Source: Bryopsis sp. KO-2023 (lineage: Eukaryota; Chlorophyta; Ulvophyceae; Bryopsidales; Bryopsidaceae). Taken from it: DNA of 64,000 nt. Positions 2,722 through 47,806 of the stretch are shown here, one piece after another. The position numbers and the translations under genes were made by a program. The notes beneath the pieces were generated by a model, which saw only the letters and a list, made by a program, of their open reading frames with translations, made no database searches and was not told the origin of the DNA. The stretch lies in assembly GCA_030272585.1 (NCBI GenBank), contig BSYQ01000008.1, forward strand, positions 3,720,001 through 3,784,000, read 5' to 3'. Numbering within the stretch: position 1 is the first letter of the stretch; every line of letters starts with the position of its first letter.

Positions 2722-2753
<32 letters not shown>

Positions 2754-14424: not shown

Positions 14425-14445
14425 CTGCAATACGCTTGGACATCA

Positions 14446-24345: not shown

Positions 24346-26087
24346 AACCCATCCAAACCAGAAACACATTTTCTCTTCACTGTCCCTTCCTTCCTATCTT
24401 ATAGATGGTTCTTTTGAGCTTCGCTCCCCCAGGGCACACACTTTGGTGGTCATTATTCTGCTGCATAGATGGAAAAACATCGATCGATGGATGGTCTTTT
24501 TGGACAGGTATTCTACTTGGATTTACGTTTATACTCCTTTAAAAAAAAAGCACAACATGAGCTGGTGATAGCATTCATTCGTTCGGAACTTTCTGATGGA
24601 TTACCTTGGACCTATCTCACACAATTTTACAAGGCCAGCCAAGTGCAATGCATTGAGTATCAACAAAAACTCTTTCCCGTGACATGATAAATGAAGCCGA
24701 AGGAAAAAGAGAGAAGGTGTTGATCTTCTTTTTTGGATGCCGCCTCATCTACTAGATAGTAGAGGTAGTACTCCTCTTGCTCCATCCTTGCAGGGACAGC
24801 TTTCGATTGTGAGCTCCAAGATGAAACAACCTACTCAACAGAAATAACAGAATTAATTCAGCTCCAAACCAGGGATGAAAGAGTTCTTGACGGAGGTGGT
24901 TTTTTGGACAGACTTTGCCTTTTCCTCAGAAAGTTTCCAATAGATCGATCAACGCGCGTCCACAGAAAATTCCACAACAACAACAGCAACAGAGTTTTTG
25001 GAACACACGGAGCCTATCCCACCACCGGAAGGGCTCTTTGGGATTCGATATTACAGGGGAAACTTGTTATTGGGTATGGTTTGAAGTGCAGCAATTGATT
25101 GGGTAGTAGAGCATCTCCTAGTTCCTTTTTCCAGAGCGAGTGTGAAAGTCGTTCGACCTTTTCCTTATCAGCTCGGTATTTTATGCACTCTGAGGGAGGA
25201 TTCTTCAATAAAGCAAGAGCACGTTGTCAATTCAAGCAAGGTGGCTCTGAAACTGAAATTCTGATAGAATATTGACACCATCTGACAAGTCAGTTGCTTA
25301 CCTGGCACTGTTGGAATGAAGTTCTGTGAGATGGAATTGAAAAGAACTGGGGCTATTTTTTTTGTGCTCCAGGTAGCACTGTTTTATATTCGTGGGTTCA
25401 CTAGCTTGTGAATATTTTATTACATTTGCTGTTGTCCTGGTTCCGACATCTGATCATGCAATCGCACCATTTGCCACCTTCTTAAGCTATTAAAAAAATT
25501 ATTTAAATTTTTCTATTCAAATTCTAGATCAGACAGATCCACCAATCGCTTTTGCTGACACCAACTGCAAAAGGGGAAAAGTGTGGAAAAGTGCCTTGAG
25601 GAAAACAACAAAGAGGGTCAAGCCAATTTAGAGGATTGGGAAAAGACGGAAACCTTCCAAAGGCGTTGTGTGCAACAGAAATAAAGCAGTTGGATCACGT
25701 GGTCCAAATGTGAATTGCAATCAACAAAACAAGATGCAAGAAGAGGTCTAAGTGCCTGTTACAGGCAAGTCAAGACTTAAAGAAAAACCTTCAACCCTTC
25801 TGTCAAAATGGTGGTCTTAGTGGGGGCTCGTTTCTTGTTTGAGTTAATGAAGTACCTGTTCCATGAATAGATGCCACCAACAAAATAAAAAGATGCCACC
25901 AACAAAATAGAAACAAATAAAAAAATTGCAGGAGTCCGAACAAAGGAGCCAACTACGCAGTGGAGAAGTTGAAAAAAAAATCACTTCCAACACAAATCAA
26001 ATTTTTACAAGACCTTCATTCACATTTTCAAATATAAGCTATTGTTTATTGTTTAATTCAATACCGGATACGTAGAACATTCGTCAA
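24346..26087. other. Gene-poor stretch
   Basis: Short frames occur, the best being 24469-24687 plus (72 codons, containing LVIAFIRSELSDGLPWTYL) and 24904-25098 plus (64 codons). They read like possible exons but have no family I recognise and no clear partners. 25400-26050 shows nothing beyond AT-rich sequence. Confidence 0.4.
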
Positions 26088-26376
26088 GCAGGCCTGGTGC
26101 CTTGTGGGTCGTAGCTTGACGCCCAAAATTATAGAAAAGGGTCCAAAATTGATCAAAGTTGAAATCTTGCCTGGAAAGAAAAGAAAACACCGCCCAAAAC
26201 CAGTCACACAGAGCACAACGATCCGCATCTTCCAAAAACGTGACAAATCACCAATCAAGACGAGGCCAGCTGCACTTCAAGACCCCAGCTGCACTTCAAA
26301 CGATTCGGCCAAAAACACGTCCTTTGAAGACAAAAAAAGTCTGTTCTGGGAACGGCGACATCTGAAAAAAATGAAC

Positions 26377-26948
26377 TCAACGGCCACCTCCCCCGCCACC
26401 GCCACCACCGCCTCCCCCTCCTCCTCCTCCTCCACCCCCGCCGCCGCCGCCGCCGCCACCACCACCACCTCCGCCGCCGCCGCCACCTCCTCCACCGCCG
26501 CCACCATATATGGTTATATAACAGCCTCCGTTGCACTTACATTGGCAACGCCATTCATCCCAGTACGCGCCATGGCAGCACTTGTTTTTGCCGAACCAAT
26601 AACAGTCTGCGAAGTATCAACCAAAGAAAGCAACTCAAATGCTTGTCGCGAGAACCATAAAATCGCACCCGACACGGTTGTGTACATTTTCACTCACTTG
26701 TCCAACCGCAACCAGTCAATCGGCGCCCGGGAGCCAAAGATCCTTGTGGAGCCTTGATGCCTGCATGAGAAAGGAGAGCATTAGGTTATCCAGTAAGGCA
26801 CGATTTTATCGCTGCAACTTGTTGAACGAGGAGCGAGAAGCGAGGAGCAAGAGCTGGAAACATGAAACCGACCCGTTTCGGCCACCGCCACAGTCACAGC
26901 TGCGCTGGCCACGAGGCCAACCAAGAGAATCGCGACAAAGGTGCGCAT
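26377..26948 (-). CDS. Secreted eight-cysteine peptide with 41-residue polyglycine tail
   Basis: Three exons (26948-26873, 26760-26698, 26606-26377) join in frame to 122 residues. Residues 1-23 form a clear signal peptide (MRTFVAILLVGLVASAAVTV AVA). A short linker (IKAPQGSLAPGRRLTG) leads to a Trp- and Cys-rich core spaced C-x4-C-x7-CC-x9-C-x-C-x-C-x3-C, containing CCHGAYWDEWRCQCKC. Then come YITIY, 41 consecutive Gly coded by mixed GGN codons, and a final Arg before TGA. Intron 1 has a weak donor (G/GTCGGT), but the paralogue shows a 14-base indel just inside it, confirming that region is not coding. The product is presumably exported. The even Cys number suggests disulphides, and the Gly tail could be structural or adhesive. 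The family is not known to me, and the function is open. Confidence 0.82.
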
Positions 26949-27016
26949 CGTCAGCTGCAATCTAAAGTGCTTTGCGAACAGTGTTTCTTTTCTGCAGAAA
27001 CGACTGTCCATCAGCG

Positions 27017-27023
27017 TTTTATA
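27017..27023 (-). promoter_or_regulatory. TATA box of secreted peptide gene, copy 1
   Basis: TATAAAA on the minus strand lies about 70 bases before the ATG at 26948. It is conserved at the same position in the paralogue (43269-43275), which supports a real core promoter with a leader of about 40 bases. Confidence 0.7.
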
Positions 27024-27135
27024 CCCAACCTGCTCACCAGTTCTTCTTCTCGGTGCCTAGGTGGTCATATCATGGCGGTCGAACCCGACAAATGGTGTGA
27101 CCTGGATTGCTATGTGGTCACTAGATTCATTGCGT

Positions 27136-28048
27136 TCACGAGGCCGGTCACTTTTTCTGTGGTTGGCTGGGAATCGTTCTCTCCTTGTTGGTGGGGTGTG
27201 TGCTCCTTGTTACTTCGTTTTGAACCCAAAAACGAGGTCAAAAAGTTCGGCCGTCCTAGTGATTAATCATGAAGAGTGAACGACAACAGGATCACTCCTG
27301 AGTGGCGGTTGAATGTCAGGGGCAAGGATCACTCTCTGGGTTTGCACAGCGACAGACCATTGTCTACTTTGCAAAGCACAAAGGCTGATGAATTCCAAAA
27401 CTCGTCTTTCTCATGAAAACTTAAAATTTGGCGAGCCACAAACAAACAAACAAACATCAATTACATTTTGGCGAGCCACAACAGGGAACCACGCGTGCCC
27501 AATGCAATTTATGTTTGTTTGTTTGTTTGTTTGTTTGCCCAGTGAGAGCTGTACTCGAGACGCTGACAAACCTGGACGCAAACACACCCAAACCTTTAAA
27601 AACATGAGAGTGCGTACGCGTTTGTTGGATAAGGAAGAGGGGTTTGTGCGTTTGCAAGTTCCCTCCAGTTTGCAAGTTCCCTCCCCACTGGGAGTCCTCA
27701 GGTGAAGCTGTCTTTCGGAGGTTGTTGCCGATGGATGTTCCTGTTGCAATTGTGTTTTGAGTACCGTGTTTAATTTGTCAGAAATACAAGGGCGGGCGAG
27801 GTTGATCCACGGTCAAACCAAGTCGCCAGCCCTCGTCCTAAAACCAATCGTTTTGTGGATCCCTTATCTCTGGGTTAAGTTCGGGTTCAGGAATTGCGTT
27901 TTGGAATCGTTTCTCAGCGGTCGACTGTGCCTCCTGTTGTTTCATCTTCTTTCAAACGGCCTTCCTGGGAATTGAACCCAGTTATCGAAGCAAGGTTTCC
28001 TTTCAAAAGTCTCTCTGGACTGCAGGAATGAAAGGAGAGTTCGGCGAG
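27136..28048. other. Intergenic, with tetranucleotide repeats
   Basis: No gene is supported. At about 27443-27465 an (ACAA)n run, and at 27510-27537 its inverted counterpart (GTTT)n, flank a segment that includes a repeated 15-base piece TTGGCGAGCCACAAC. Confidence 0.5.
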
Positions 28049-28050
28049 TA

Positions 28051-28698
28051 CCGTAGATAGGGTAATTTTTGCGTTGGATTAATTTTTGCGAGCACGAAAA
28101 ATCGCAAAAATTAGTGTCGCAAAAATTGAAGCACCGCAATTAACAAGCGCGCGCAGACATCCCACCAACGCAAACAAAGACCAGCGCAAACATCCCACCA
28201 ACGCAAACAAAGACCAGCGCAAACATTCCGCCAACGCAAACAAAGACGAGCGCAAACAGAGTGTTCGTGTGTTGCACAGAATTGTGCCCCATTAATATAT
28301 TTTTTTTCGCTGTTGTGTTTTTTTGTGTTTATTGTTTGAATGGGATCGATTTCTTGGGAGTGCTGTCGTCACATACTCGAGAAATGGAGTCGCAGAGGTC
28401 GCGACTGATTTTCAGGGAACACTGAATTGGTTGTATTCGGGAATGCTCGCTTGTGAACGTTTTTTTAAGCAACAGTTCTGATCTTCTTTCGAAAGAGATC
28501 GTGCGGTGTTTTGTGTGCGCAGCTTTTCTTTTGCGCAGCTTTTCTTTTGGGCAGCATTTTTTTTGCGCAGCATTTTTTTTTGCGCAGCCTGATATTTGCG
28601 TTGCACTAATTTTTGCGACCAGATTGAATCGCAAAAATTAGTGTCGCAAACATAAAACACGCGAAAGTTCATGCGCGCAAACATTACCCTATCTACGG
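28051..28698. mobile_element. TA-flanked MITE, 648 bp
   Basis: Terminal inverted repeats begin CCGTAGATAGGGTAAT and end ATTACCCTATCTACGG, with TA on both outer sides (28049-28050 and 28699-28700), as for Tc1/mariner-type insertions. A sub-terminal inverted block (TTTTTGCGA...TCGCAAAAATTAGTGTCGCAAA) occurs at both ends. The interior has three tandem copies of a roughly 32-base unit containing CCAACGCAAACAAAGAC (about 28158-28250). No transposase frame is present. Confidence 0.82.
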
Positions 28699-28932
28699 TA
28701 TACCATTGTTTAAAACGGCCTCTCTCTGGTGCCATTCCACTTCAAAACGCAATGAATTGAGTAAAATGTACAACCTCGCATTTACCCTTTGCATGCATAA
28801 CACAGGCACGGATTGAAAGACGCAACCAATTACATATCTGCTAAACAGGCTGTTTCAACAGTTCGAACAGGAGTTGGGGAGAAAAACAAAAAATCTATGA
28901 AAATTCAAGGGGAAAACTGTTTTAATTTGGCC

Positions 28933-30880
28933 TCATTGATCTTTGAGTTTGGCCATCAAGGGGTCAGCCATGCTGCAGGTAGCCGACCCAGGATCGGCCT
29001 CCAAATTAAAATCTTTGATCACATTGTCCACGACCAGCATGGAGTATCTGGATAACCAAAACAACAAGCATGCAGAATGACTGGGTCCAAATGGTCAAGA
29101 CTTTTCAAACATATCGAAAAATGATATTCGGCCTTGACAAGAAAGACATGCCGAAAAAAAAGTTGGCGTCGCCTTAACTACATTTTAGGGCAAATAGAAA
29201 AAAAGAAGAAAATAATTTATATTTAATTTGTTTTTTTTTTTTTAGGGGGGGGGGGGTCCTGCTTTGTGCAGTGGACAAAAGCCACATGAGGATTTTTCTT
29301 TTTTTAATAGGAATTTTGCCCCCAAAGAAAGAGAGCAAATTCCTGAGCGGAAAATCAAAATAATTTTTCAAATTAAGACTCTCTTAAAAAGCTCATAATT
29401 TCAAGAGTTTGAAGTATCTACTGAAAACAAAAAAAAGAATAGGGCAAATTTTCTGGAATACATCACAACTGGAACTGAAAATGAAGCTGAAAATGAAGGA
29501 AAAGGTCTTTTTCGCACCTCTTTGATCTTTTGTTTCCAAGAAATGCAGTGGCATCCAGGACCAAATCAAGAGCTTCAGTGAGCGCGGAATGGGTGTCGGC
29601 CCACATCTCGATCTGACAAACCCACAGCTCCACATATCAAATTGATGTTTATTTTTTTCTTATCAGATTTGTTTTTTCTTTTTCGCTTTGGATTGACCAA
29701 GAAAACAATCCATCCCCTCTTAAGGTGAAAAAAAAAAAAAGAGAAAAAGATTATGTTTCAATATTTTCTTCTTGATTCTTTTTTTTTTTTTTTTTTTTTT
29801 TTTTGGGGGGGGGGGGGACATTGAAACAAAATACAATGCCTTGTGCTGATTTTCTTCTTCTTGACCAAACACAACAAATGATACCAATAATAATAATAAT
29901 AATACAAATAAGAATAATAATGGTAAGATAACACATATACATGTATGTTATATTATAAAGTTCTTTTTTAAATTTTTTTAATTTACATATTTTTATGTTA
30001 AGACATATTTTTTTTAACGAAGGGATTCACCTCCAAGATCACATTACGTTCCACATATAACTTTTTTTCAATGAAAAATCAAAAGCGAATGTCCACATAT
30101 AACTTTTTTTTAATGAAAAATCAAAAGCGAATGGATGGGAATCTTGGTTAATTATCGTCAGATCTATCCAACATGGAGCTTACACCCATGAGATACTGCA
30201 CAGGAGTTTAAAAAATAAAAATAAAAGAAAAGAAAAGATTAAATCAATGGGTGGTGTATACCTTATTTGAGGCTCCTTGAGCCTCCCCCCAGGCTGACAT
30301 AACAAACGGATCATTCACAGAAACAAAAGCGACGATATCCACTCCAAGTTCCTTCAACTTGTCATAATTGGTGACATAGGAAGGAAGGTGGGTCTGACAT
30401 ACAAGCACAAACACACAAACTTGAACACACAAGTTTGAAGTTTGAAGGGTTTTTTTTCAAACTTGAAAAAAGTGGTTACAGTTCATTTCATGCCACTTGC
30501 ATTGCCAACTCTACTTTCTGCCTTAAAAAGATTGATAAAGATGAATAAACAATAAAATAAAAGCCGACCATAAAATCAGGATATCAATTTTCTTTTTCGA
30601 CGTTTTCGTGCGAGATCTAACAAGACTACCTTGGAGCAGGTGGGCGTGAACGCGCCTGGAACCGCGACGATGACGACTTTCTTTCCGGCGCACACTTCGC
30701 GGATCTTGAAGCTGCCTTGAGGTGAATCCTTGTAAAGAGTGACGTCGGGCAGAGCATCTCCTTCCTGCAGATCAAAAAGTTCATTCTGAGCGACTGCGTT
30801 GATCTACACCTCCCAGATCGCGGGGATCGCAACGTAGCGGACGTGTTCTACAGCCAGGGCTAGTATACCTTGGGTGCCAT
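28933..30880 (-). CDS. PRDX5: Peroxiredoxin, PRDX5 / type II class
   Basis: A thiol peroxidase that reduces hydrogen peroxide and organic peroxides. Five exons (30880-30869, 30764-30630, 30393-30262, 29612-29518, 29047-28933) give 162 residues, the usual length of this class without a targeting peptide. The first exon codes only MAPK. The peroxidatic cysteine lies in [11 protein letters not shown] at the exon 2/3 border, followed by [18 protein letters not shown] and [13 protein letters not shown], both family hallmarks. The exon 4 block [20 protein letters not shown] precedes the C-terminal YSMLVVDN. The cysteine in SATCSMADP matches the resolving cysteine of atypical two-Cys PRDX5. Without a presequence it is likely cytosolic, and the ending KLKDQ is not a clear peroxisomal signal. 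All joins keep frame and phase. Confidence 0.93.
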
Positions 30881-31357
30881 CTTTTTTCACTGAGCGAGAA
30901 ACGAGGAAACGGTCGGTGCGCGCGTGCCTTTATGGTCTGGAGCTTGGACCACGCCACCTACCAACACACCCCTTCTTGTGAATTTGGTAAGCATTTCAAG
31001 CCATCAGTCAGCATACGTCATCCTGACGTTTGGGGCACCCGAAACAAGTGGCATAAAAAAAGCGTGAACTACCCTTCAGTCCAAAAAAAAAAAAGAAGCA
31101 AAAACGAAAACGAAAACGAAAACGAAAGAAAGCAGAATATATATTTATAGAATTGGAAAATCAAGTATGGAGCAATTTGGTTTTCTTTGGGGTAGAGAGA
31201 AGAAAGAAAGCAGAAACGAAGGAGTGTCGACAAACGAGCCAAGGAGTCAGCCTTGACCAAAATCTTTGCAAGAAGTCGCTTATGGATTCAACATGGTCGG
31301 GTGCCTCCCAGAGCTTACTTTCGTTTCAAACAAACAAGCCGGTTGAAACGATTTAGT
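30881..31357. other. 5' flank of the peroxiredoxin gene, no further gene
   Basis: No coding frame is supported. A GAAAAC repeat run ((GAAAAC)n-like, near 31102-31122) and A-runs are visible. The peroxiredoxin promoter should lie in the first few hundred bases; I see no TATA box. Confidence 0.4.
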
Positions 31358-32083
31358 CCCAATTCGCCGCGTACCATTTCGCCGCATCCCGCTACGCCGT
31401 CGTCAGACAAGCGCATTTCAACACGTGAAAAAACTTTTCGAACTTTTCAAGTCACTTTCGCGACGACTGCGGTGCTTGGGAAAGAACGTCTGCTGCCCTG
31501 ACGCGCGCACGAACGGATGAGTGTGCACCAATGACGGGGTTTACTCCCACTACTCCCACTACTCCCACTACTCTGCCGGTCGCGCTAACCCTAACCCCTA
31601 AACAACCCCCCCTTTTTACGCTTTTTGTCAGAGTTGCAGATGTCGGACTAATGCGAGTCCGAGTAACGGGAGTCGGAGTAGTGGGAGTACACCGATAGAC
31701 GGCGGGAAGGGATGGTGGCCTTCGAAAGGAGGTTCGAGTCCTCCTCCCACCGACACCACAGCGAATGTCACATTGTCAGTAGAGAGAGGTCGGTCCTGTT
31801 CGAGCCATTTTTGTTTTCTTTCGTTAGTTTCTGTTGCCCCCTTTTAGATTTTCTGTCGCTTCTTCTTGAACCTCCTTGCAACGGCCATCATGCAACCCAG
31901 CGTGTCGATGCACGCTGGTCAGTACGCTCGTTAGCACGCTTGAACGCGCGCGTTTTTCCAGAAGTCGTCGCTAAACCGATTGTGGCGAACAGAAAAAGTT
32001 CGAAAAGTGCAGTCACGTGTTGAAATGCGCATGTCTGACGGCGGCGTAGCGGGATGCGGCGAAATGGTACGCGGCGAATTGGG
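31358..32083. mobile_element. Non-autonomous DNA element with about 95-bp inverted ends
   Basis: The ends are CCCAATTCGCCGCGTACC at 31358 and its reverse complement finishing at 32083. The inverted similarity extends about 95 bases inward, through AACACGTGA and CTTTTCGAACTTT. The interior has short CCCACTACT repeats (about 31549-31575) and an inverted GTAGTGGGAG counterpart (about 31670-31690). No coding frame is evident. The right border touches the 5-bp target duplication of the TRIM element, so this element was probably there first. I could not define its own target duplication. Confidence 0.75.
31585..31602. repeat. Interstitial telomere-like motif
   Basis: CTAACCCTAACCCCTAAA, about two to three TTAGGG-like units on the minus strand, inside the 31358-32083 element. 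Too short to mark an old chromosome end by itself. Confidence 0.5.
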
Positions 32084-32088
32084 AATAC

Positions 32089-32948
32089 TGTGAAGGGGTA
32101 TTCACCAAGTCGTGTATAGGACACCAATACCAAGAGATATTACATTCACCTCAGTCCTCCCTTAAATAACCATTCACGTGAGAACCGTACCGCCAACCAA
32201 TAATACCCAACTGCCGGTCTGACTCACTACAGTATTTCCCCCCAAGGTTGGATCGCGTCCTCGCGTCCTACAAACTTATCCACACCCAATTCTGTATCAA
32301 CAAAGAAACACCAACGAAGCCACGATCAATCCCTCGTTCGACCCAAAACCTTGGCAACACTGTCGAAAATCACTCTCACATTCCACAAATCTCTGCACAA
32401 AATGGTCTCCAGCTCTTCCTTCGCTTCATGGTCGTACTGCCGTGGTTCACGCTGCACCGCCACCGTCGTGTCGAAAACCCCTCCCTGGGCCCACCGCGCT
32501 CGTCGTGCCAGCGCCACCGTACTCGCCACCATCCCTCGCTCCTCGGAACTCTCTGTAGACATCATTAATAATAATTGCGGAATCCATCATCTCCGTTGAC
32601 CTTTCTGCTTCGAACTCGACGCCTGTAGACGGGGTCACTGAAGCCGCGCCAACACACGCCAGCGTCCATTCGCAGCTCTCTCTGTGGTCCTGAGGTAACC
32701 TCCCTCACCCACTCTGTCTTCACGCCGCTTATATCACAACCGTTCCTTCCCCCTGACTCTGGTTGGCTCCTTTCGGACCACGACTCCCCTTCTTGGCCAC
32801 CAAACTGTGAAGGGGTATTCACCAAGTCGTGTATAGGACACCAATACCAAGAGATATTACATTCACCTCAGTCCTCCCTTAAATAACCATTCACGTGAGA
32901 ACCGTACCGCCAACCAATAATACCCAACTGCCGGTCTGACTCACTACA
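32089..32948. mobile_element. TRIM-like LTR element, 860 bp
   Basis: Two direct 143-bp repeats (32089-32231 and 32806-32948) start TG and end CA. They appear identical or nearly so by eye and enclose about 574 bp. The 5-bp direct repeat AATAC at 32084-32088 and 32949-32953 is a clean target duplication. The internal part has no gag-pol coding capacity, which fits a terminal-repeat retrotransposon in miniature (TRIM). The near-identity of the repeats points to a young insertion. Confidence 0.88.
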
Positions 32949-32953
32949 AATAC

Positions 32954-34419
32954 ACCGTTGAAACATTCGTTGTTGATGTGTACTGCATTTCCACCTCCTG
33001 ATTCAGGAGTCCTGAATCCTAACAAGTAATGAACAAAAGTCTGAGTAGGTCGGTTTAAAGGCTTCATTTTTCACAAAATGGTTGGGAAAGGATATATCAA
33101 TGTACTCAAACATCAATCTTAAACATCAGTTTTCAACATTCGTATGGTCTCCTGGAGCAACGGCGCCCACCCAACAAGTCAAAGCGGTCTTTAAATTCCT
33201 AAGGCTCCCCAAAAAAATGTCAATTGAATATCACGAGTTGGTTCAATAGAATCACTTTCCAAATTTCATAAGGTCAATATTTGGCAAATTCTGTTCCGAG
33301 GCCTATCGAATCAGCCTCATTTGGTCAGTTTTTTCTTATCCAAAAAAAAAGCCTTCATTTTATTCGTTTGAATCAAGATATCCAACCATGGAGGATGGCC
33401 AATGCTTACCCCTCTTCCATAGATTACTTTGCACAATACATCAACGCAGTTGAGATTTTCTTATTTTGTTGAGAGAAAAAAAATAAAACTGGACATGTAA
33501 AAAAAAGCTCCGCCTTCGTCTGTTTTCGCCCATGAATTTGTCTTGCAACCCACTTGCAACCCAAAAATGATTTATTGAGGGGTGTTCAATTTTCCCCCTT
33601 GGGGTTTCTGGGGATGTTCTTTGGCTCTTTTCAACACTGAAACGCAAGCAAGCAAAAGGATCAAAAATTGATTTACGATTCTACCCAAACACTGTGTCAG
33701 ACCGCTCACTATGTCAGACTGCTCACTATGTCAGACCGCTCACTATGTTGTCTTTCCTTTCTTGTTCTCACAGCAAGGAGCGCTGTAGAATTCGTCCAAA
33801 AAATTCTCAATCCTCCCCTCGTTTTTCTCTTTCTTTTTTTAATTGTTGAAGGGGATATGATTTTCAGAACGAAATATTTACACCAGCAACGAGTGCTGTA
33901 AAATCGTTATAAGTTACAACAATTTGCATTGTTATTTCAGTATGTTTCCTTCTTTTTCTACCCTTTTTTTTTCTTTCCATCCAGTAAAAGAAAAAACATA
34001 CTATTATAGCTATTTTTTTTACCCCTGTTCCAATATCAAATCCTAGTATTTTCAGTACAAAAAAGCATTGTGCCAACCCCATTTTCCAGAGGCCTTGAAA
34101 AATTCAAAAAAAAAGAAAATTATATATATATACCCCCCCAATGAAAAAATTTCACAAAACATCAGAGAGATAATCAATTCGCTCCCTTCCCATTTCCTTT
34201 TTCTTTTTTTTTTAACAAAATATTTTTCAATTCAATTTACCACCCCCAACACACAGCCCTACATTCAATCCTTTCTTGCGTTTTTTTTCGGCCAAGAATT
34301 TCCACCCCCTGGTTCCCTCATTCATCTAAAAACATGCAATTTTCTATTCTAAAACAGGAATGATCGCCCCAACCCCCCCCCTTCCGCACCAAAACACACA
34401 CCCAATCATTCCTTGACAT
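32954..34419. other. Intergenic, no supported gene
   Basis: AT-rich sequence with T and A runs and only short frames. It contains the small tandem repeat at 33696-33746. Confidence 0.5.
33696..33746. repeat. Three tandem copies of a 17-bp unit
   Basis: GTCAGACCGCTCACTAT is repeated three times, the middle copy with a single C to T change. Confidence 0.9.
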
Positions 34420-37400
34420 TCAGCGAAGTGGAATGTCACCAATTCCCTCCAAAATGGCAAGAGCTTCGTTTTCATACTGCTCCGGAAAACTGAATTCCGC
34501 ATCTTGCCCCCAGCCGTCCATACCATCGGTCCCCATCATGGTGTCATTCAACTTTTCATCATCCCAGGCCATCAGGTGTTTGATAAGAGGGTCTGACATG
34601 GACATCGCTCCAGTGTCCACTTCAAAGCCAGCTGGGCGAACTCCACATAGCCCTCCGCTTCCTCCCCGAAACCCAGGCCTCAGCCCATCGCTCCCAGGAT
34701 CAAGCTCCGAGTTGAGATGTGCATGTACATTTGCATGTGCATGTGCATGTGATGCATGCCTGAAATCTGATTCCCGATGCCCATCCCCATTCGGCTGCGG
34801 ATTTGCATGCATGAAACCTAGATGATCTCGGACATGCATGTGGACCGGCGTGTTTCTGATATGTATTTGGGGGTGCTCCCCGTTTTGCAAGGAAGCTTCC
34901 ATTCCAGGTGGGGGCGATCCAGACGGAGTGCTGCACTGAACAGAGCCCACCGACGGTCCGGATTTTGGCGAGCCAGGCCTCGAAGTGATGTTTCTTTTGA
35001 TTGCTTCCTGATACGTGAAAGGCGAAGGGGGTGGTTTCATCGCTAGCGGAGGATCAGGAGGCTGAGGCAGACTGGGCATATCGATCGGGGTTCCGATGTG
35101 CGACATGGGGCCGTCGGAGAATCGATTGGCTGGTGGGGTGGATGCTGGATGGACGGCCAGGGTGGGTGCAGGCGGGGTTCGAGGGGAGGGCAGGATGTTG
35201 AAATCGCTTTTGATTGGGCGAACAGGAATTCCACGTAGCAGTTGGATCATGGAGGGCTTTTTCTGGTCCGAAGAAGAGCCTTGGGGATTTTGGTCTGGGC
35301 GGAGGCTGGCGGTGATTTGTTGATGCAGGGCAGGATGTTGGTAAGGGGAGATCGGGGAGGGGCCTGGTGGAGAATCGGCTGCTTCGGTCAAATCGATGGG
35401 ATCGGTGCTTTCCAGGCTCACTTGCATGAAATCTGCCGACAAGCTGTCCGCCTCGTCGAAAGTCGGCAAGTTGGAAGGGTCCTGTGAATGAGCAAAAAAA
35501 TAAAAAATTAAAAAATTAAAAAATATATATATATATTATTGTATTTTAGGGTAAAAGATATCTGGGATGTTCTTCATCCTTCTGAAATTGACTGGATCGA
35601 TTTTCCACATGCCATGTTTTTTACAAAATTAATTATGGAAAAAATCGTCACGCTAATTACGTTTTTTTCTGACAAGGTGTAATAATTTTCGGGCGTAACA
35701 CGTTTTCCCGTAATTAATATTTAGTAAAAAACACGGTGTTGAAATATATTCCCCCTAAAAGACAAAAATCTTTGAAGACTTGGCAAATGGTTTTTCAACC
35801 TCGTTTTTCACAGTTTTTCAAAATATTCATCCACCGTGAAAATAAAAATAGTACAAAAAAACCCCGTAAGAATATGCACCTTCTCGAACGCTTCCGAGTC
35901 GAAATGTAAAATTCCCCAATCGGGATGACCAGGTTGCGCCCAAGCCTCCATGGCCATGCGATGGAGCTCCCCCATCGCATCGTACTGCCATGCCCAATCT
36001 TTTTTCAAAACAAACTTTTTGTCTTGTACCAGGGCTGCAAAAAAAATCGAAACGGGCAAAAAGATCACCAATTTCAATTGACTTTAAATAAAAATTAACA
36101 AAAGAAACCACCACACGATAATATCGATATAACTGTCCATCTTCTGAATGCTGAACTTTTTGAATAAAACCGGAAGCTATACAAATCAGGGGCAAGGTCA
36201 AAACAAGAAACCGAGCTCTTTTTTTTTTTTTTTCGAGCGAAAAAATGGGGGGGGGAAATAGGAATGTTACTTACCGACAGGCCCTGTGGCGAAGTCGATA
36301 ACGGCACAATTGGACTTGTAAATGATGAGTTGAATGGTGCCAGCCCTTTCTCGAGGTCGAAAATATCGCATCCTGTTATCGTATTCCACTGCCTTTGCAG
36401 CATGACCGACCATTCGATTCCAATCCACGTCCGATAATTTCATGGCATGTATGATCTGCAGAGAAGTAAAAAACAACATGATTATGCGAATATGTATTAT
36501 ATTGGTCCAGATTCCCGGTATATATTTCTGCTTAGTTGGAAAAGTCTTTTATTGATTCGTTGTTTTGGGACTTGACTTGGAAATCAATCTCTCTCAAATA
36601 AGTTGCGGACACTTGATTTTACAGGATTTTATTCTTTTGAAGCAGAGAGAAAAAAAAAATATAAGCATCGAATTCGTGGTTCATCCCCTCAACACTCCTT
36701 CATTTTTAAAAAAGTGGGCGCACTGAGCCGATTTTTTGCTTTTCATAAACATTCCAGTTATGCCATTACAGATTTTTTTTCTTTATGTTTTTTCTTCGAT
36801 GCAAACGACGTTGCGAGGGTTTTTTCCATAAAAAAACCAAAATCAAATCCTACCTCTTTCCGAACGGGACCATGCTGATTAACAAATCTAGCACACTCTT
36901 GAAACTGGGCGACTGCGATGCAAAAAAATTAAAATTAAAATTAAAAATTAAAATTATAATTAATTTTTTTATTTTAAATATAATAAAATATACCGAGCCT
37001 CTTCACTGATTTATTTTTATTTTTATTTTTTCTCATTTTGCGGTCGGCAAAGTGAAACCCACGCGCTGAAGACGAGGTAAAGCATTTCAATCGTTCGTTC
37101 ATATGATTAGCTTTTTTTACATTTTTTTTTTCAAGGTCCACTGCAATGTCGAAAGCAGCTGAAAATCATTACATGAAACCTCCTTTTCGGCGAAGGAAAT
37201 TAAAAAAAGTAGGAAAAAAATGAAGAAAAAACAAACAAACACACAAACAAACAAAAAGCAAACAGATGGGCAAGCGGCGCAATAGGATACGCAACGATCA
37301 ATGTGGATCCACTGACACACGCCGATTGGTGGGCTGCCTGCTCTTATATTGCTTGCTAGCTTGGTTTAGCTAGCTTTTTTTTTTTCTTTTTTTTTTTTTT

Positions 37401-40400
37401 TTGGGGGGGGGGGAGGGGTTGCACCTGTGGAAACGCTCTTGATTAGGCCGTCGGCTCTGACATGTTGGCACAGGCTTTCGAATTTTTTTGCCCTTTCCTT
37501 CCCCATTCTATCGAGTTTTTCCACATCATCCGTCAGGAAAGGAATTTTCGCCTTCAGTAGGGGCCTGGCTCTTGAAGTGACCTGTGTTTTTGAACCAAAA
37601 AAAAAAAAAATAACAATTAAAAAAAAGAAGAAGAAAGAGAAAATGCAAATAGTTTTGAAAGATAATGCAAGTCGTGCTCTCTTCAAAATAAAAATAAAAA
37701 TGGATATTTCGTTTTTTTTCGAGTGTCGATTTTTAAAAACATGTGCTTATAGGATTCTTGTGCTGGTTATGCCCGTTAATTGATGCTTTTTTTTGCACGA
37801 ATACATTTTATTACATTGATAATTTGGATATAAAATTTTCCGGCAAAACACATTTCCATGAGAAAGGGGCTGCTCTCTTTAAAACCTTGCCTTGTGAAAA
37901 ACACAACATCAAAAAATTGTTTTTTATTCAAACATATGGAGGGGAAAAATTTAAAAAAAAAATCGCAGTACAAAACAGACAAAAAATTTATGCAAATATT
38001 TTTTTTACCGTTGCGAAGCTTTTTGAAACGAAAGCCTTGATCTGGTGAGGGAACGGAAATCCTCTGGTTTCTGGACACACTCTAACCAGCAATCGAAACG
38101 ACCCGTTTTTACAGCCATGATGAGAGCTGCTGCTCGTGGTGGTGGTCAAGTCGACAGGAAATGTAGCAACCCCACCCTTAGTTCAAAAAAAAGAAACAAA
38201 ACGAAACAAAACAAAATTAAGCCCGTTTGGTCCATTGGAAACCACAGAAAGAAAGCAACTGGTTAAGCATGATATAACCAGAACCAAGATGTATTGATTG
38301 ATTGATAACCAGAACCACCACATGGCTCAGAATCCTTACAGGGGGGGGGGGCCTGATGCAAGAGCGACATGAGGTAAATCAATTAACCCGATTAGTAATT
38401 GTTTTAGTAAATGTTCTTGGTAATATGCTATCAAAAAAAAGAAAAAGAAAAAAGAACATTGTGTACATATAAAGCAGGTCACTCTTTTGTAAACGATGCA
38501 GAAAAGAGTGAGGGGAAAAAGAAAGCTGGGGAAAAAGCTGGGCACCGCTGTATCCATAAATTGTGAATTTTTTTCAATATATATTTCTTGACAAAGAAAA
38601 CACAAACTTGTTTCAAAAGGAGAAAGTGATTTTTATTTTTTTTCTCACCTGCATTCTGAACCGAATGCCATCGTCCTGTTTGTGCTGAGATGTGGTCGAT
38701 TTACTGTCCAGCAATGGGAGGCCATCCTAAATCAAGCAATAAACAAAAAAAAAGGGGGGGGGGGAGGGAAATTAACAACTTTAGCAAAATCAACCCTCTT
38801 CTCAACAGCATCGGCTGTCAAATATCATTTTGCAACACATGCCAAAAAAAAAAAAAATACTCGGAAAAAAAGAGGAAATCCTGCAAAGAAAAAGAGTGAG
38901 GTCGTGGTATTTTTATTTATTTTTTTGCGGAGAAAAAAGTCACACACATGACCAAACCATGAATGAACAGATTTGCAATTCACATTAGGCAAACTTGCCC
39001 AACGAATGCCATCCACAACGAGGTGATTTAGCCACCAGCCAAAACCCTGGTGTGAAAAACATATCTACAGATGGAGCTACTCACCAGCTTGAACATATCG
39101 ATGTACGGACGGAAATCTTTCCCACAGTGCGAAACCTCGTTGTTTGAATTTGGATCGAACTCATGGCCCTTCAACAGCGACACTATCAGCTCCATATCTT
39201 GGGGGACGATTTCGCCGGTCCTTTTTTCTTTCAAAACGATTTTCATGGGCTGGCCGCAAGTCGAAAGCAGTCCTCCGTGCTCGATGTATTTGTCTGACAT
39301 GAATTCGTTGCCGCATTTTCGACTCGGATTTCGTTCGCACAATAGGCAGGAGGTCTCCCCACAGCCGGTTGCCCTGAATCATGGAATATGTAAGATGTAT
39401 ATGTACATACATATATATATATAGAGAGATTAAACGAATGAATGATTGTTTAATTTACATTAGGTGAACTTGCCCAACGAAGGCCGTCCACAACGAGGTG
39501 ATCCAGCCCTGCCCTTAGTAAAAATCCGGCTCAATATACTCAGTTCTAGGAAAACCTCCACAGTTGCATCTAAGATACAGTAAACCTAATAGAAAATCCC
39601 TTTTACAAAAAAAAAGTGAAAGTGAGAGTGAGAGTGCCTAACAACACCCTGGAAACGAAAACTGCCTATATCTATCTGTTCAATTTTTTTTTCCTGTTTT
39701 TTTTGCGAATGTATAGAATCAAGTTCCATTCAAATTGAGCAACACACTTACGCGCAATCGTGTGTTAGCTCCAGATCGAACAAAATCGAAGGACTGCCAT
39801 CGGCACCATTGAGTTGTTCCGTCAAAGCCAAAGATGGGGCGCCGTTTGCTGGATTTAAACCTCCAGAAAAATACGATTGGACCCCTTTTCGCTTGACCTC
39901 CCTCAAACCATCCAGTAGCAACGGACAGCCTGTCCCCCCCCCCCAAAAAAAACAAAATGAAATAAAAATGAAAACGTAAAATTCAAAGAAAAAGTGAAAT
40001 CCAATTTTAATAGGGGAAAAAAATAGCAAAAATCAAAGTATTATCCAGAATGAAAGGTCATTTTTTTGTTTTTTTTTTATTATGTCAAAAAAAAGTAAAG
40101 AAATATCAAAGATAGCAAATATGAGCAGAAAATAACCACCAAGGAAAAATTCGCTTACTGTTTGGATATTTTTCTGCAACTCCGGGAAGAAAATGTTGCT
40201 CGAAGAATCGATCCAAAAATTCCTGTGTGAAATCATAAGGAAAATCATCGAAACACGAAAAAGAAAAAAAAAGAGAGAATGACTTTTTCATTTATTTTTA
40301 ATATTTAAAAAGTTTCGATTAATTCCAATTTGTATTTTTAATTTCCGACTTGAAACCAATTCAGCATTCCCATATCAACAAATCTTCATCAATGAATTGA

Positions 40401-40606
40401 ACTTTTTTCTTTCCTGTTAGAATAAGACTCACCACAAAATCATTAGAAAAACGTCTGTCCACCTGGAAAAACCAATTCCCCCATATAATTAGAACAAATT
40501 TTTAAATTTACAAAGATAATTGGAAAAGGCCCCTACCAAGGAAACATTTCTTCTTCAAAAAGAAAATATACAGATATATTACCCCTTTCATTGAGTTACA
40601 AGACAT
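34420..40606 (-). CDS. CBP60-like calmodulin-binding/transcription factor-type protein
   Basis: Twelve exons (40606-40583, 40462-40433, 40222-40159, 39929-39752, 39373-39085, 38726-38649, 38176-38009, 37581-37425, 36912-36854, 36455-36275, 36034-35880, 35481-34420) sum to an intact 814-residue frame with consistent phases. Residues 20-280 match the pattern of the CBP60 DNA-binding core: IVLKEKRTGEIVPQDMELIV, then GVATFPVDLT and GSFRLLVRVCPETRGFPFPH. Residues 280-460 resemble its conserved C-terminal part: FLTDDVEKLDRMGKERAKK, STVAQF, MKLSDVDWNRMVGHAAKAV, RMRYFRP, then WQYDAMGELHRMAMEAW. A Cys-rich insert (GCGETSCLLCERNPSRKC) is unusual. Residues 460-814 are Pro-rich with His/Ala repeats and an acidic end, like an activation region. 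CBP60s regulate immune genes in plants. The assignment rests on remembered patterns, so a related Ig-like factor is possible. Confidence 0.62.
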
Positions 40607-42426
40607 TTCTTAAACCACCAAAGAGTGGGTTGGTCATTACTAATATGATCAGGACCCTCCCTTGGTGCGGCCAACTCAATCAATTGGCACTGGGTAACTC
40701 GTCCATTTCGTCCGTCCGACAGGCGAATTCCATACACTTGAGAGGGGGGGGGGGGGGGGGAGATTCCAAATTCGACTGCAAGTATGTCCACAGCGATTTC
40801 CGCGATCTCGGAGTTGGAATCGCGCAATTCTCGAAAAATTCAAGGACCCATGGTTGTCCAGCCGCACGCATTCATCGTGATAGTCCCGGAAGGTACTAGC
40901 GTTCAACAAGGAGTTGCGATCCACGCCAGGGCATATGTATGAATGTGTATACGACAAGAGACATCCGCGGGGAACGAGCAGTGGGTTTGCTTGGGACTGT
41001 CACAATACATAAACCAGGACGTCGCGCAAGGATACTCACCGCCATGCTCCAGTTAGTGCAGCTCTCCTGTGCCTGGGTCGAAGAAGTTGAGAGATCTATC
41101 GGGCTGTTAAGAAGAAATATGATCGACGTGCGGGCTGCTTCGTAGCGGCTTTTCGGTAGGAACGGGGACAGGACGTATGATGCCCATCGAAATGACCGCG
41201 AGTGATTTTACGCGCCACGTGCGTCGCGGCCGAGGTAGTGATGCAGGCAAAAGAAGCTATCAGGAAGCGACGCGAGGGGGACTGTAAAATGGGAGTGAGC
41301 CCTTTTTACAGGGACACGGTACGATTCGTAGGTGGTGGGGCGTTTGCTGGGCAGCCAGCTTTCTACATGACCTCTTTTTCCGAAAAAAAGGGGTAGCAGC
41401 CGCCTTTTTGAAAGTCGACGTTAAAACTTCGGTCTTGTAGACATTCTTCATCGAGCACCTCTGGGCAATGTCTCTATCCACTGCTGTGCTACTCCACTCC
41501 CCTCTTTACCAGTTTCCCCAAAGACTTCGACTGGCGCCAAACGGAAAAAGGAAACCTTGCAGAGTGCAAGCGAACATAAATAGATAAAGAAAAAATTAAA
41601 CGAAACGAAATGAAATGAACCAGCCGGCTCTTGCAAGAATCTGATGAGTACTCTCAATCAATCCCACCAATACAGCAATTACAGCTTACAAAACGGATCC
41701 TTGCAAAAATACCTTCGAGCATTTTTTTTTAAGCCGTACTTGAGTCAGGTAACCTGACCCACTTCAGGTCATTCGCAAAAGCGACCTAAAAAATATTTAT
41801 TTACCCGTTCCGTTCTTTCTATTTTTGTATCCACCCTTCGAAAGATGCTGTGGTGCTGTGGGTTATTTCCAGAAGCCGTTAAAAGTCGCCAGGGACGGTT
41901 CCTATGTGCGACATGGGGAGGGTTGGTTTAGGGTTTAGGGTTGTGCGAGCGACCGGCATAGGGCACATTCGTCGGACATGGGATTTGTTTTTTATTTTAT
42001 TTATTTTTTTATTTTATGAGATGTGTTATTTCCTGTGGTCTTCTAAGTTGGCTGGATTCCTCCAAACTCGTGGGTACATTGCTGCTACTTTCCTAGTGCT
42101 CCTCAACACTGGCTAGCACAATTCCTTCACAAAGTTGGATTGATCGAAAGTTTACTGTATCTTGAAATATTTGGATTGTGGTTTCCTGGAGAAGATGCTT
42201 CCCTTGATGGGTGATACCAACCTTCTGATTGTGTGTGTCAAAAAGATGCATGCCAATTTCTATGGGTGGGTGGTTTCTTTTCTTTTCAACTAGCAAATCG
42301 CAAAAGACACACTGTGTCAACTGGCAGTCCACAGGATATTTTCCAAAATCAACACAAATCCAAGTTTTACAGCACTCTCACATTTGCAAATTCAAACAAT
42401 GGTTTATATAATTAATTGTATTGTAG
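40607..42426. other. Intergenic, 5' flank of CBP60-like gene
   Basis: Minus-strand frames at 40588-40957 are open in all three frames around a run of 17-18 C and could hold an alternative upstream exon, but no frame is convincing. Nothing is supported in 41000-42426 apart from a telomere-like motif. Confidence 0.4.
41927..41942 (+). repeat. Short TTTAGGG telomere-like repeat
   Basis: TTTAGGGTTTAGGGTT, two plant-type telomere units. Probably an interstitial remnant or chance. Confidence 0.45.
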
Positions 42427-42671
42427 GCCTGTTGCCTTGTGGGTCGCAGCTTGGCGCCCAAAATTATAGGAAAGGGTCCAAAATTGATCAAAGTTGAAAT
42501 CTTGCCTAGAAAGAAAAGAAAACACCACCCAAAACCAGTCACACCAATCACCAATCACTCAGCTGCACTTCAAACGATTCGGGCGGCTTCTTCGTTGAGG
42601 CCAAAAACACGTGCTTTTGAGACAAAAAAAACATCCATTCTGTGAACGGCGACATTAGAAAAAAAGTGAAC

Positions 42672-43200
42672 TCAGCGGCCACCACCGCCGCCACCGCCGC
42701 CACCGCCACCACCGCCTCCTCCTCCACCCCCGCCGCCGCCGCCACCACCGCCACCACCACCGCCGCCGCCTCCTCCATAACAGCCTCCGTTGCACTTACA
42801 TTGGCAACGCCATTCATCCCAGTACGCGCCATGGCAGCACTTGTTTTTGCCGAACCAATAACAGTCTGCGAAGTATCAACCAAAGAAAGCAACTCAAATG
42901 CTTGTCGCGAAAACCATAAAATCGCACCCGACACGGTTGAGTACGTTTTCACTCACTTGTCCAACCGCAACCAGTCAATCGGCGCCCGGGAGCCAAAGAT
43001 CCTTGTGGAGCCTTGATCCCTGCATGAGAAAGTAGACACCATCGAATTCGGTTTTCCAATAAGGCACAATTTTATCGCTGCAACTTGTTGAACGAGGAGC
43101 AAGAGCTGGAAACATGAAACCGACCCGTTTCGGCCACCGCCACAGTCACAGCTGCGCTGGCCACGAGGCCAACCAAGAGAATCGCGACAAAGGTGCGCAT
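42672..43200 (-). CDS. Secreted eight-cysteine peptide with 33-residue polyglycine tail
   Basis: Paralogue of 26377-26948 with the same three-exon plan: 43200-43125, 43019-42957, 42865-42672, 110 residues. Signal peptide, linker and eight-Cys core are identical in sequence to copy 1. The YITIY pentapeptide is reduced to Y, and the polyglycine run is 33 instead of 41, again followed by Arg and a stop. The base change at the exon 2 border is silent (Gly in both). Intron 1 lacks 14 bases present in copy 1. Exact conservation of the exons against indel differences in introns and tail suggests a recent duplication, possibly with selection on the core. The function is unknown; export is inferred from the signal peptide. 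Confidence 0.82.
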
Positions 43201-43268
43201 CGTCAGCTGCAATCTAAAGTGCTTTGCGAACAGTGTTTCTTTTCTGCAGAAACGACTATCCACCAGCG

Positions 43269-43275
43269 TTTTATA
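43269..43275 (-). promoter_or_regulatory. TATA box of secreted peptide gene, copy 2
   Basis: TATAAAA at the same distance (about 70 bases) from the start codon as in copy 1, within identical flanking sequence. Confidence 0.7.
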
Positions 43276-43614
43276 CCCAACCTGCTCACCACCTCTTCTT
43301 CTCGGTGCCCAGGTGGTCATATCATGGCGGCCGAACCCCACAAATGGTGTGACCTGGATCGCTATGTGGTCACTAGATTCGTTGGATTCACGAGGCTGAT
43401 CAGCTTTTTCTACACCGGGTTGTGGTGGTTGATGTAATTGATATCATCGATGTTTGTTTGTTTGTTTGTTTGTGGTGGTTGATTCGCTCTCTCAGAGTAA
43501 TAGGGGTGACAAGGGTTTTGGTTCTTCTGATAACATTTGAAGGTTTGGTTTGGTTGGTTGGTTGGTTTGTTTGTTTTTTGGAGATTCTAATTTGTTTTTT
43601 GGACGGGTTTCTAG

Positions 43615-44652
43615 ATTTTTCCGCAATAGAAAAAATCCTACTGGCTTCTTCGTGGAAGTTGGTTTCATGCAGTAGCCTATTTTTCTTCTCTACATTTTGT
43701 TCGTCATGATTTGTCGATTCTTTCGGGGGTTTCTTTTTCTTCAAACCATCCTTCGTGGAGCTTTGCCGCTGTGCAACTTGATGATATTTTGCCGCCAGCA
43801 GCACTCAGTTCCCCCGAGGAGTGGTTCGCGAAGGAGCAGGTTACCCAGAAAGCGTTGACGTTGCTGGTTGGGGAGCGGCGGTTTGATGCTCTTTTGCGTC
43901 AAGGGTTCCGGCGGGATGAGGCGCGTTTGCGAAGTCTCTCTCTTCCTTATTCTGGGGCTTACCTTTCTGCTTTGCCTAATCAGGCGTTGGGGACGGAGCT
44001 TTCTTCGGCGGCGTTCAATATTTTATTACGATGGCGGTTGGGTCTCCCCATGTATGAGGATGGCGCTGTTTGTCCCATGTGTCATTCGTCCATGGATGTT
44101 TTTGGTGATCATGCTATCATGTGCCAAGTGGGGGGCAGTGTTTTGGCTCGTCATAATAGTATCCGGAACTTTTTGTTCCATTTTTCTCGGTCGGCGGGTG
44201 TGCGTCCTCGCATGGAGTTGCACGTAGATTCTTCTTTTGAGCGTCCGGCCGACGTATTTTTTCCGTCTTGGCGGCATGGTAAGGCGTGTGTTATTGATGT
44301 CACTGTTTCGCATCCTTTACAGCAAGCCACTTTGGCTCGGGCTACTCGCGAAGCGGGGGCGGGCATTTTACGTTGTGTGGATCGCAAGGCTCAAGTGGCT
44401 GAGAAATGTCATCGTTTGGGGTTTGATTTTATCTGTTTTGCGGCCGAGTCTTTTGGCGGGTTTTCTTCGGACAGTGGTCATTTGATTCGTTCTTTATCCC
44501 GCGCAGTTGCGACTTGTCAAGATCTCCCGGTTTCAGTTGTTGTTGAAAGAGCGTGGCAGCAGCTCTCTCTTTCTTTACATCGGCCTCAGGGTAACGCTTT
44601 TTTGGAGCGATCTTCTTTGTCGTTTGATTCTTTTGCTTTTGATCGAGGGTAG
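43615..44652 (+). mobile_element. 5'-truncated LINE, restriction-like-endonuclease type, ORF C-terminus
   Basis: The frame codes the C-terminal third of a LINE polyprotein. A zinc-binding block (CPMCHSSMDVFGDHAIMC) is followed by a PD-(D/E)xK-like endonuclease core (RPADVFFPSWRHGKACVIDV TVSHP), as in R2/NeSL-type elements. It aligns along its length with the LINE at 59910-61198 (LRSLSLPYSGAYLSALPNQA / LPHSGAFLAALPNQALGTEL). Reverse transcriptase is missing through 5' truncation. Upstream similarity starts around 43615 (SWFHAVAYFSSLHF). The frame from about 43711 to the TAG at 44650-44652 is open. The 3' UTR differs from that of the other copy, so they belong to different subfamilies. Confidence 0.82.
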
Positions 44653-46906: not shown

Positions 46907-47806
46907 TCAGCTGGGGCTAATGTGCGAGAAGTACTCATCGACCCCCACACCTATGGCTCGAGCGATATCTCTGATCGTGCTAATCTTCCCCAGCTGTTCG
47001 CTGTCGCGAAGGCTGCTGACGAAGCCTGGACAAATCAATACCGCAGGCATGTGGGTGTGTTCCAGAACGTAGTAGTCACCACTCTTCACCCCCCTATTCC
47101 TGAAACCAGTCGTGCCGACGACCGCCGCCAACACCGCCTCAGCGCACAGCCCAGCCGCCTCTCCTTCCGTTGCATGCACGAAGGCTTCTGCGCCGTGGCC
47201 AGTAGGAAACGCAGAGTTGTAGTGAATGCTGACGTAGAGATCGACGCCCAGCTCGTTGGCCAATCCAACCCTCTGGATCAGAGGAATGAAGACGTCCGTG
47301 GTGCGCGTCATAGCAACGTTGTATCCTTTCTCATGCAGATAGTCAGCGACCATAAAGCCTGTGGAAAGGTTGAGGCCTTTCGTTGTCAGACCGTTCGCCA
47401 CGGCTCCTGGACGGGAGCCGCCCCACCCCGGGTCGATCAGGATCGTTCTCTCATTCTGCCAGCACACAGGTCAACGCCAACCGTGAGCACAACCATCCAC
47501 AGACATTTGACCAGAGAACTTGGACTTTACACTTTACCAAGGTGCCGTACAGAGTGTTCAAAGAGGAAACGATCATGGATAGACAACGGCGACGCTGAGC
47601 AAACCAACCTTTGTCCGCTGGGAGCTTGTCATGGTTTCAGAAGATCGGGTCCCTGTAGGTTGGAGATGCTACTATCAACCCAGAAAGAATCAAGGGAGCC
47701 CTGGCTCCTCTCGATATGCCTTCATTGCATCCCACTTACCTCGTACAGGGGTCTCACGTTCGCTGCTGGGGCCGCCGCCTTCTGGGTGCGTTTCGTCGTT
47801 GCTCAT
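46907..47806 (-). CDS. N-acetylmuramoyl-L-alanine amidase fold (Amidase_3), catalytic site lost
   Basis: The 549-bp exon 47455-46907 codes a complete Amidase_3-like domain: ILIDPGWGGSRPGAVANGL, NLSTGFMVADYLHEKGYNV, MTRTTDVFIPLIQRVGLANE, LYVSIHYNSAFPTGHGAEAF, then RGVKSGDYYVLEHTHMPAVL. Active family members have a zinc His in DPGHGG, a zinc Glu in the following EK motif, a zinc His in SIHAN and a catalytic Glu in LVELGF. Here they read Trp, Thr, His and Cys, so three of four are replaced and hydrolysis is unlikely. My upstream model (47806-47740, 47652-47609) adds a short polar N-terminus starting MSNDETHPEGGG, in phase, total 219 residues. These short exons are less certain. No signal peptide is seen. 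The fold is bacterial or phage in origin, so lateral transfer followed by repurposing is likely. Confidence 0.72.

Follow-up and report, generated by a model that had tools for sequence, protein, structure and literature searches.

Polyglycine-tailed proteins with an eight-cysteine head form an expanded gene family in a green alga: a possible self-assembling matrix component

Introduction

Long, pure polyglycine is insoluble and rare in proteins. In the KRMPs of pearl oysters, a signal peptide and a basic Cys-containing core are followed by a Gly/Tyr-rich tail. The class II glycine-rich proteins (GRPs) of plants carry GG(X)3GG repeats and a C-terminal Cys-rich motif (PMC5852109); an extracellular or wall location is predicted for them, and they are small (116 amino acids for CrGRP; PMC8096328). 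Polyglycine adopts a network of polyproline II (PPII) helices, Gly-rich PPII bundles occur in several unrelated proteins, and a disulfide-stabilized PPII model was proposed for a Gly-Tyr-rich hair protein (PMC8409303). For precursor processing in plants, the RxxL/RxLx motif is cut by AtS1P/SBT6.1 and SBT3.5; PROSCOOP12 is cut between TGRRLM and GSGASG, and RALF23 between INRRIL and ATRRY (PMC13082318). Here, we analyzed a 64,000-base stretch of the Bryopsis sp. KO-2023 genome, referred to as the window (C8:3720001-3784000 of an assembly of 91,088,769 bases in 28 contigs). Two genes in the window code for an eight-Cys head followed by a polyglycine tail. We tentatively assign them, with a chance that we put just short of even, to a green-algal family of small secreted proteins that has expanded and whose products, required in high dose, would assemble by themselves into matrix, wall, or adhesive.

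The window genes and their family

Both genes are located on the minus strand, gene 1 at 26377-26948 and gene 2 at 42672-43200 (all coordinates are window positions unless a contig or locus is named). Each has three exons, GT-AG introns, and an open spliced frame, so that the positions and exon structure proposed in the initial annotation were confirmed. Gene 1 codes for 122 residues and ends in 41 Gly, Arg, and TGA; gene 2 codes for 110 residues and ends in 33 Gly, Arg, and TGA. The genes had been described as an isolated twin pair, which did not hold: they are two of at least 28 family members on four contigs of the 91-Mb assembly. Members were collected by searching all six translated frames of the genome for three different cores, and the counts are lower bounds. 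Full models were obtained for 27 members, with exon order, intron positions, and leader common to all of them. Among 100 first-order Markov copies of the window, GGN runs reached 5 codons at most, compared with 41 and 33 in the real tails. Because of this gap, and because the same structure recurs in 25 further full gene models of the assembly, the tails are not due to chance. The spliced-frame models of the two window genes comprise the following features.

26873..26948, minus strand: gene 1 exon 1, leader peptide MRTFVAILLVGLVASAAVTVAVAET plus 1 base
26761..26872, minus strand: gene 1 intron 1, GTCGGT..TGCAG, 112 nt, phase 1
26698..26760, minus strand: gene 1 exon 2, short spacer, GRRL motif, and first Cys (IKAPQGSLAPGRRLTGCGWT)
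26607..26697, minus strand: gene 1 intron 2, GTGAGT..CGCAG, 91 nt
26377..26606, minus strand: gene 1 exon 3, remaining seven-Cys core, ITIY, 41 Gly, Arg, TGA
43125..43200, minus strand: gene 2 exon 1, leader peptide
43020..43124, minus strand: gene 2 intron 1, 105 nt
42957..43019, minus strand: gene 2 exon 2, spacer, GRRL, and first Cys
42866..42956, minus strand: gene 2 intron 2, 91 nt
42672..42865, minus strand: gene 2 exon 3, remaining core, 33 Gly, Arg, TGA

The leader, also postulated earlier, was judged by eye to be hydrophobic; that of gene 1 exon 1 has an identical 26-residue match at 5 places on C8. The two proteins differ only in ITIY and in tail length. To this extent the earlier claim of identical coding parts was correct, but one synonymous base in exon 2 (62/63 identical) differs as well and is the single difference in the non-tail coding DNA. 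A reported difference of 14 bases in intron 1 was not reproduced: the introns measure 112 and 105 bases, and gaps aside, 92 of 98 aligned bases match. Similarity of the two units spans 26090-27158 and 42425-43411 (84.3%). As this range covers the promoter, the gene with its introns, and the 3' region, all of these seem to have been copied together as one block.

Many open alternative splice models existed for the family. The sequence-predicted models used here were chosen by intron 1 donors of the form GT(C/G/T)G(G/A), acceptors of the form (C/T)AG, and exon positions common to all groups. For five of the seven close C2-left copies, a second open model has a longer exon 2 (78); the TGCAG acceptor was taken, so that exon 2 measures 54, the length it has in the remaining C2 and C4 groups.

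The groups of members mostly follow the contig. Five members are found on C8, three on C12, six at 6.9-8.5 Mb of C2 (C2 right), eight at 2.2-3.7 Mb of C2 (C2 left), and five on C4, where the divergent L084 is located in addition at 1.78 Mb. L084 is the 28th member and was read from six-frame translations only. It shows the leader MRGLVAILLVGLLAAAAFAEIG, GRHL, then CHNEHKYCCSYAYWSTRTCRCECSYC, and a Gly/Tyr/Ser-containing tail passing into a Gly run that ends in Arg. When a tree was built from the non-tail coding regions of the 27 models, of which 25 differ, C12 (support 99/96), C8 (93/91), C2 right (99/100), seven C2-left copies (91/90), and four C4 copies (88/84) were recovered as groups; L032 and L047 (C4:820011) were unplaced, and only 5 of the 22 inner branches reached the firm level. 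The pattern fits local expansion plus spread.

Polyglycine tail

Tails of 26-80 Gly were found in 26 of the 27 genes, and 26 of the 27 proteins end in Arg. L015 (C12:564273) has a tail of only 3 Gly. Apart from the junction and the C terminus, the tails contain 15 non-Gly residues in total: nine in L047, five Asp in five close C2-left copies, and one Ser in L018. Of the 26 tails, 25 consist of 26-55 Gly with at most one interior non-Gly residue. L047 is a patterned exception, in which 80 Gly are arranged mostly in G10-N repeats with an 11-residue period, ending in RRFS. Additional residues near the junction occur in three genes (ITIY in L001, LPR in L032, and SR after one Gly in L041). A pure Gly tail up to the terminal Arg, as given in the initial annotation, is therefore an accurate description of both window genes, but not of members with N, S, or D breaks or of L084 with its Gly-Tyr-rich tail.

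The 27 genes use 1081 Gly codons in this region (3 of them in L015), distributed over GGC (387), GGT (336), GGA (292), and GGG (66). Because all four GGN codons are used and the first two positions are nearly fixed, the codon pattern would reflect selection for glycine, unlike that of a slipping single-codon microsatellite. The repeat-like variation in tail length could also suggest a GGN-rich DNA repeat that merely happens to be in frame, with no feature at the protein level. However, all 26 tailed copies keep their reading frame up to the Arg codon despite their different lengths (L047 continues into RRFS), third codon positions vary freely next to nearly fixed first and second ones, and purifying selection apparently acts on the head (see below). 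We consider such a repeat highly improbable.

A further explanation would be a protein that uses polyglycine II bundles to bind ice or to coat some other surface. The snow flea antifreeze proteins are Gly-rich PPII bundles (PMC8409303), but apart from L047 the algal tails lack patterned residues that could form an ice-binding face. This function is given very little credence here.

Cysteine-rich head and selection

The head is a conserved, Trp/Tyr-rich segment of ~34 residues with eight Cys, in agreement with the Trp-rich eight-Cys core of the initial annotation. Eight Cys were counted in the core of all 27 models, with the first Cys of L015 out of register. The spacing C-x4-C-x7-CC-x9-C-x-C-x-C-x3-C is present in both window genes, as had been claimed, and throughout the C8 copies as well as in L006 and L007 of C12. 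In the C2 and C4 heads, x6 replaces x7, and according to the alignment the head of L047 ends in C-x2-C. The heads comprise 33-35 residues (52 in L015) with 4-8 aromatic residues.

Selection was assessed for leader, spacer, and core together, i.e. the non-tail coding region. The ratio of non-synonymous to synonymous substitution (dN/dS) was 0.10-0.28 between the five main groups (C8, C12, C2 left, C2 right, and C4), which points to purifying selection on this region. Random substitution in the core had been named beforehand as a sign against the proposal; these paralogues show otherwise. Comparisons with L032 or L047, L015 excluded, gave 0.17-0.56. Pooled values within groups were 0.21 for C8, 0 for C12 (one change in all), 0.22 for C2 right, 0.41 for C2 left, and 0.34 for C4, from pairs that are not independent. 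Copies in the same group are of recent origin, and how alike they are tells little about selection.

The composition of the head has to be considered in view of another possible function, a secreted antimicrobial or allelopathic peptide. In this case, the head would disrupt microbial membranes or bind microbial walls, the Gly tail would act as a spacer or aggregation arm, and the copy number would provide dose and variety. A multigene family, a propeptide-like spacer, and a small head with eight Cys, 4-8 aromatic residues, and a net charge of +1 to +7 over the 27 genes (His and the final Arg uncounted) are in line with such a peptide. However, most C2 and C8 copies reach a charge of just +2, selection on the non-tail region appears purifying rather than diversifying, and a long conserved polyglycine is unusual for a lytic peptide. 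Overall, we regard an antimicrobial function as rather unlikely, though it is the main alternative; if it were true, the family would represent a new peptide scaffold from algae.

Predicted processing

The motif G-R-x-L is present in all 27 models. In 26 of them it is located three residues before the first Cys, and in 25 it is followed by (A/T)-G. GRxL matches the RxLx site of plant S1P-type subtilases and stands ahead of the predicted mature part; we infer cleavage after GRxL(A/T). The genome contains 23 exon-level matches to the subtilase domain, an identification at the domain level. A lipobox reading of L-(A/T)-G-C was dropped, as this is a eukaryotic gene with introns.

The same motif would suit a signaling or recognition ligand (in mating, aggregation, or stress) that is released by a subtilase and read by a surface receptor. 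GRxL, found in 27/27 models, resembles the cut site of plant peptide ligands, and interactions of class II GRPs with wall-associated kinases have been reported (PMC5852109). It would be unusual, however, for a ligand to occur in at least 28 similar copies and to carry a bulky polyglycine tail, and this role appears improbable.

Proposed role of the family

In the proposed mechanism, the leader would be removed in the endoplasmic reticulum and the eight Cys would form four disulfides. An S1P-type subtilase would cut after R-x-L-(A/T), just before G-C, and the mature head-plus-polyglycine protein would exit the cell. There, the Gly tails would bundle in the polyglycine II (PPII-type) form, and the head, being aromatic and cationic, would anchor the protein to wall or mucilage polysaccharide, so that it could serve in high dose as a self-assembling matrix, wall, or adhesive unit. 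The high dose is suggested by the high copy number, the TATA-type promoters (see below), and the conserved sequence. Together with the PPII behavior of polyglycine, these family features lead us to favor the self-assembling wall, mucilage, or adhesive role. A more specific version, which we regard as doubtful, is a natural polyglycine material: disulfide-capped subunits with uninterrupted tails of up to 55 Gly would pack extracellularly as polyglycine II fibers. To our knowledge, a structural use of homopolymeric glycine is known from no other organism.

L015, the copy with almost no tail, provides a natural comparison, as it is also the copy whose head looks least constrained relative to its sisters. 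Compared with the other C12 copies, its dN/dS was 1.34 (30 non-synonymous against 6.5 synonymous differences), which would fit a joint requirement for tail and head.

Several points weigh against the self-assembling role. The head charge of +1 to +7 suits an antimicrobial peptide equally well, the pure polyglycine might be a mere flexible linker, and the idea that the head binds carbohydrate is a guess based on its Trp and Tyr residues. Outside its sister group, L015 gave dN/dS values of only 0.24-0.45, and the model of its exon 2, with a greater length (114), is uncertain. For these two reasons, relaxed constraint in L015 is likely rather than firm. Furthermore, dS between groups is often near or over 1. 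At the nucleotide level, the core exceeds the introns in identity by no more than a moderate margin, and in some pairs it does not exceed them: in the between-group pairs compared, identity was 0.70-0.85 for the exon-3 core and 0.60-0.81 for introns, and between L001 and L015 intron 2 (0.79) exceeds the core (0.71). As unrelated flanks align at ~0.6 by the same method, the baseline for the intron values is high. The exons do not stand out by nucleotide identity alone, and the case for constraint therefore rests on dN/dS.

If the self-assembling role is correct, the family, with 26 tail copies on one type of head, would provide a natural system in which to study how polyglycine II assembles, and an extracellular material that assembles by itself and is defined genetically.

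Flanking control elements

The following elements were located around the window genes.

27017..27023, minus strand: TATA box TATAAAA, gene 1
43269..43275, minus strand: TATA box TATAAAA, gene 2
27064..27073, minus strand: conserved upstream motif ATGATATGAC, gene 1
43316..43325, minus strand: conserved upstream motif ATGATATGAC, gene 2
26165..26172, minus strand: AGGCAAGA element after gene 1, behind a pyrimidine run
42500..42507, minus strand: AGGCAAGA element after gene 2
26005..26009, minus strand: TGTAA, possible poly(A) signal, gene 1
42367..42371, minus strand: TGTAA, possible poly(A) signal, gene 2

The TATA box had been placed about 70 bases upstream in both genes; TATAAAA starts 75 bases before the ATG. 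In the family, a TATA-like match (TATAAAA and near forms) is present 73-84 bases before the ATG in 22 of 27 genes, and the other five have GATAAAA instead (L022, L032, L040, and L041 by alignment, L023 by sequence). CACGTG was found 94-109 bases upstream in 16 of 27 genes, namely the six C2-right copies, seven of the eight C2-left copies, and three of the five C4 copies. One C2 family copy is accompanied by a Plant_SRP RNA gene (L036:304-591) and a tRNA gene (716-799).

Downstream, AGGCAAGA is located 164-323 bases past the stop codon in all 27 genes, followed by a conserved TCAA and mostly preceded by a pyrimidine run. Because of this run, AGGCAAGA is a possible acceptor of a 3' untranslated region (UTR) intron; it could otherwise be a regulatory element. 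A suitable donor no more than 60 bases from the stop was detected in only 12 of 27 genes and in neither window gene. No Rfam match was obtained at the element in the six loci scanned. A conserved RNA hairpin in the downstream region, suspected from inverted repeats, was rejected: when 16 of the 27 sequences were folded with RNAalifold, only 3 pairs emerged, and in none of them had both sides changed. An alternative splice that would lead from a GTAAGT within the core to a downstream TAG/GCAAGA was rejected as well, since the groups differ by indels in the downstream stretch and no conserved frame was seen; the stretch was read as untranslated. TGTAA is the poly(A) signal of chlorophyte algae. 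It follows AGGCAAGA by 122-163 bases in 24 of 27 genes, the exceptions being the three C12 copies.

Other features of the window and the genome

A 186-residue open frame at 46907-47467 (minus strand) matched Amidase_3, N-acetylmuramoyl-L-alanine amidase (E 4.1e-40). Such amidases are peptidoglycan enzymes; this frame lies on an algal chromosome. Two very similar BTB-domain open frames, apparent duplicates, are located at 14260-14958 and 22227-23717 (plus strand), the second with Gly-rich stretches. The open frames 43711-44652 (plus strand) and 59966-61219 (minus strand; no Pfam match) are related to each other and presumably resemble part of the reverse-transcriptase open reading frame of a long interspersed nuclear element. 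A U6 spliceosomal RNA gene was found at 2671-2773 (minus strand).

Elsewhere in the genome, ten diverged ubiquitin-like matches (26-104 bits) are clustered at C17:134903-198226. The units of polyubiquitin adjoin without an inserted residue. Cercozoan polyubiquitin has an inserted residue between units, and a chlorarachniophyte host, considered in view of the genome size, was disfavored for this reason. Many chlorophyll a/b-binding domain matches were obtained; in two loci these were inspected by eye and looked like LHCII. The best PDB match of alpha-tubulin was 6u42, a Chlamydomonas axoneme entry. Together with the Plant_SRP RNA and TGTAA, these features point to a green alga.

Comparison with known systems

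The statement that the proteins belong to no known family stood up in Pfam, PDB, viral, and prokaryotic collections, which are its only basis; other algae and eukaryotes lay outside the search. Six members searched against Pfam with E up to 10 gave only a sub-threshold PepSY_2 match (0.032), HMMER dropping most matches above ~0.1. In PDB, the best E values were 0.014 for a profile of 7 exon-3 cores and 0.63 for a single sequence, with proteins that look unrelated. None of 100 pattern matches in the IMG/VR viral collection and none of 80 in prokaryote genomes was confirmed. A literature search for polyglycine with Cys-rich, secreted, algal, or antimicrobial proteins found no precedent; as a word search, it is weak evidence of absence.

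As to knottin or cystine-knot peptides, eight Cys are present in all 27 models, but the PDB searches revealed no relative among solved structures, and the label "Cys-knot-like" from the initial annotation is unproven. The animal KRMPs show a similar order of parts with a different Cys pattern.

The plant class II GRPs, such as AtGRP3 and CrGRP, share with the algal proteins a Gly-rich region, a separate Cys-rich region, a predicted extracellular or wall location, and small size; their signal peptide has a possible counterpart in the hydrophobic leader, judged by eye, that is conserved in the 27 models. However, the order is reversed in the 26 tailed models, with the Cys head first and the Gly tail second. 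GG(X)3GG repeats are absent, the tails being nearly pure Gly in 25 of 26 models and G10-N in L047. As repeat type, C-terminal Cys domain, and a match to a curated model are all lacking, the algal family was not filed as class II GRP, and its likeness to Gly-rich matrix proteins is one of analogy at most.

The precursors of PROSCOOP12 and RALF23 resemble the algal proteins in having a leader, a spacer, and an RxL-type cut site directly before the mature part. No homology is claimed, and cleavage of the algal proteins is a prediction.

Long Gly-rich stretches are common to the algal tails, with their 26-80 Gly, and to PPII bundle proteins such as snow flea antifreeze protein, Obg, and phage spike tips. 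The phage example contains helices of six and seven consecutive Gly (PMC8409303), whereas the algal tails hold 26-55 Gly in 25 of 26 cases. The Gly-Tyr-rich hair protein, likened here by its description and not by sequence, is likewise Gly-rich, disulfide-stabilized, and structural.

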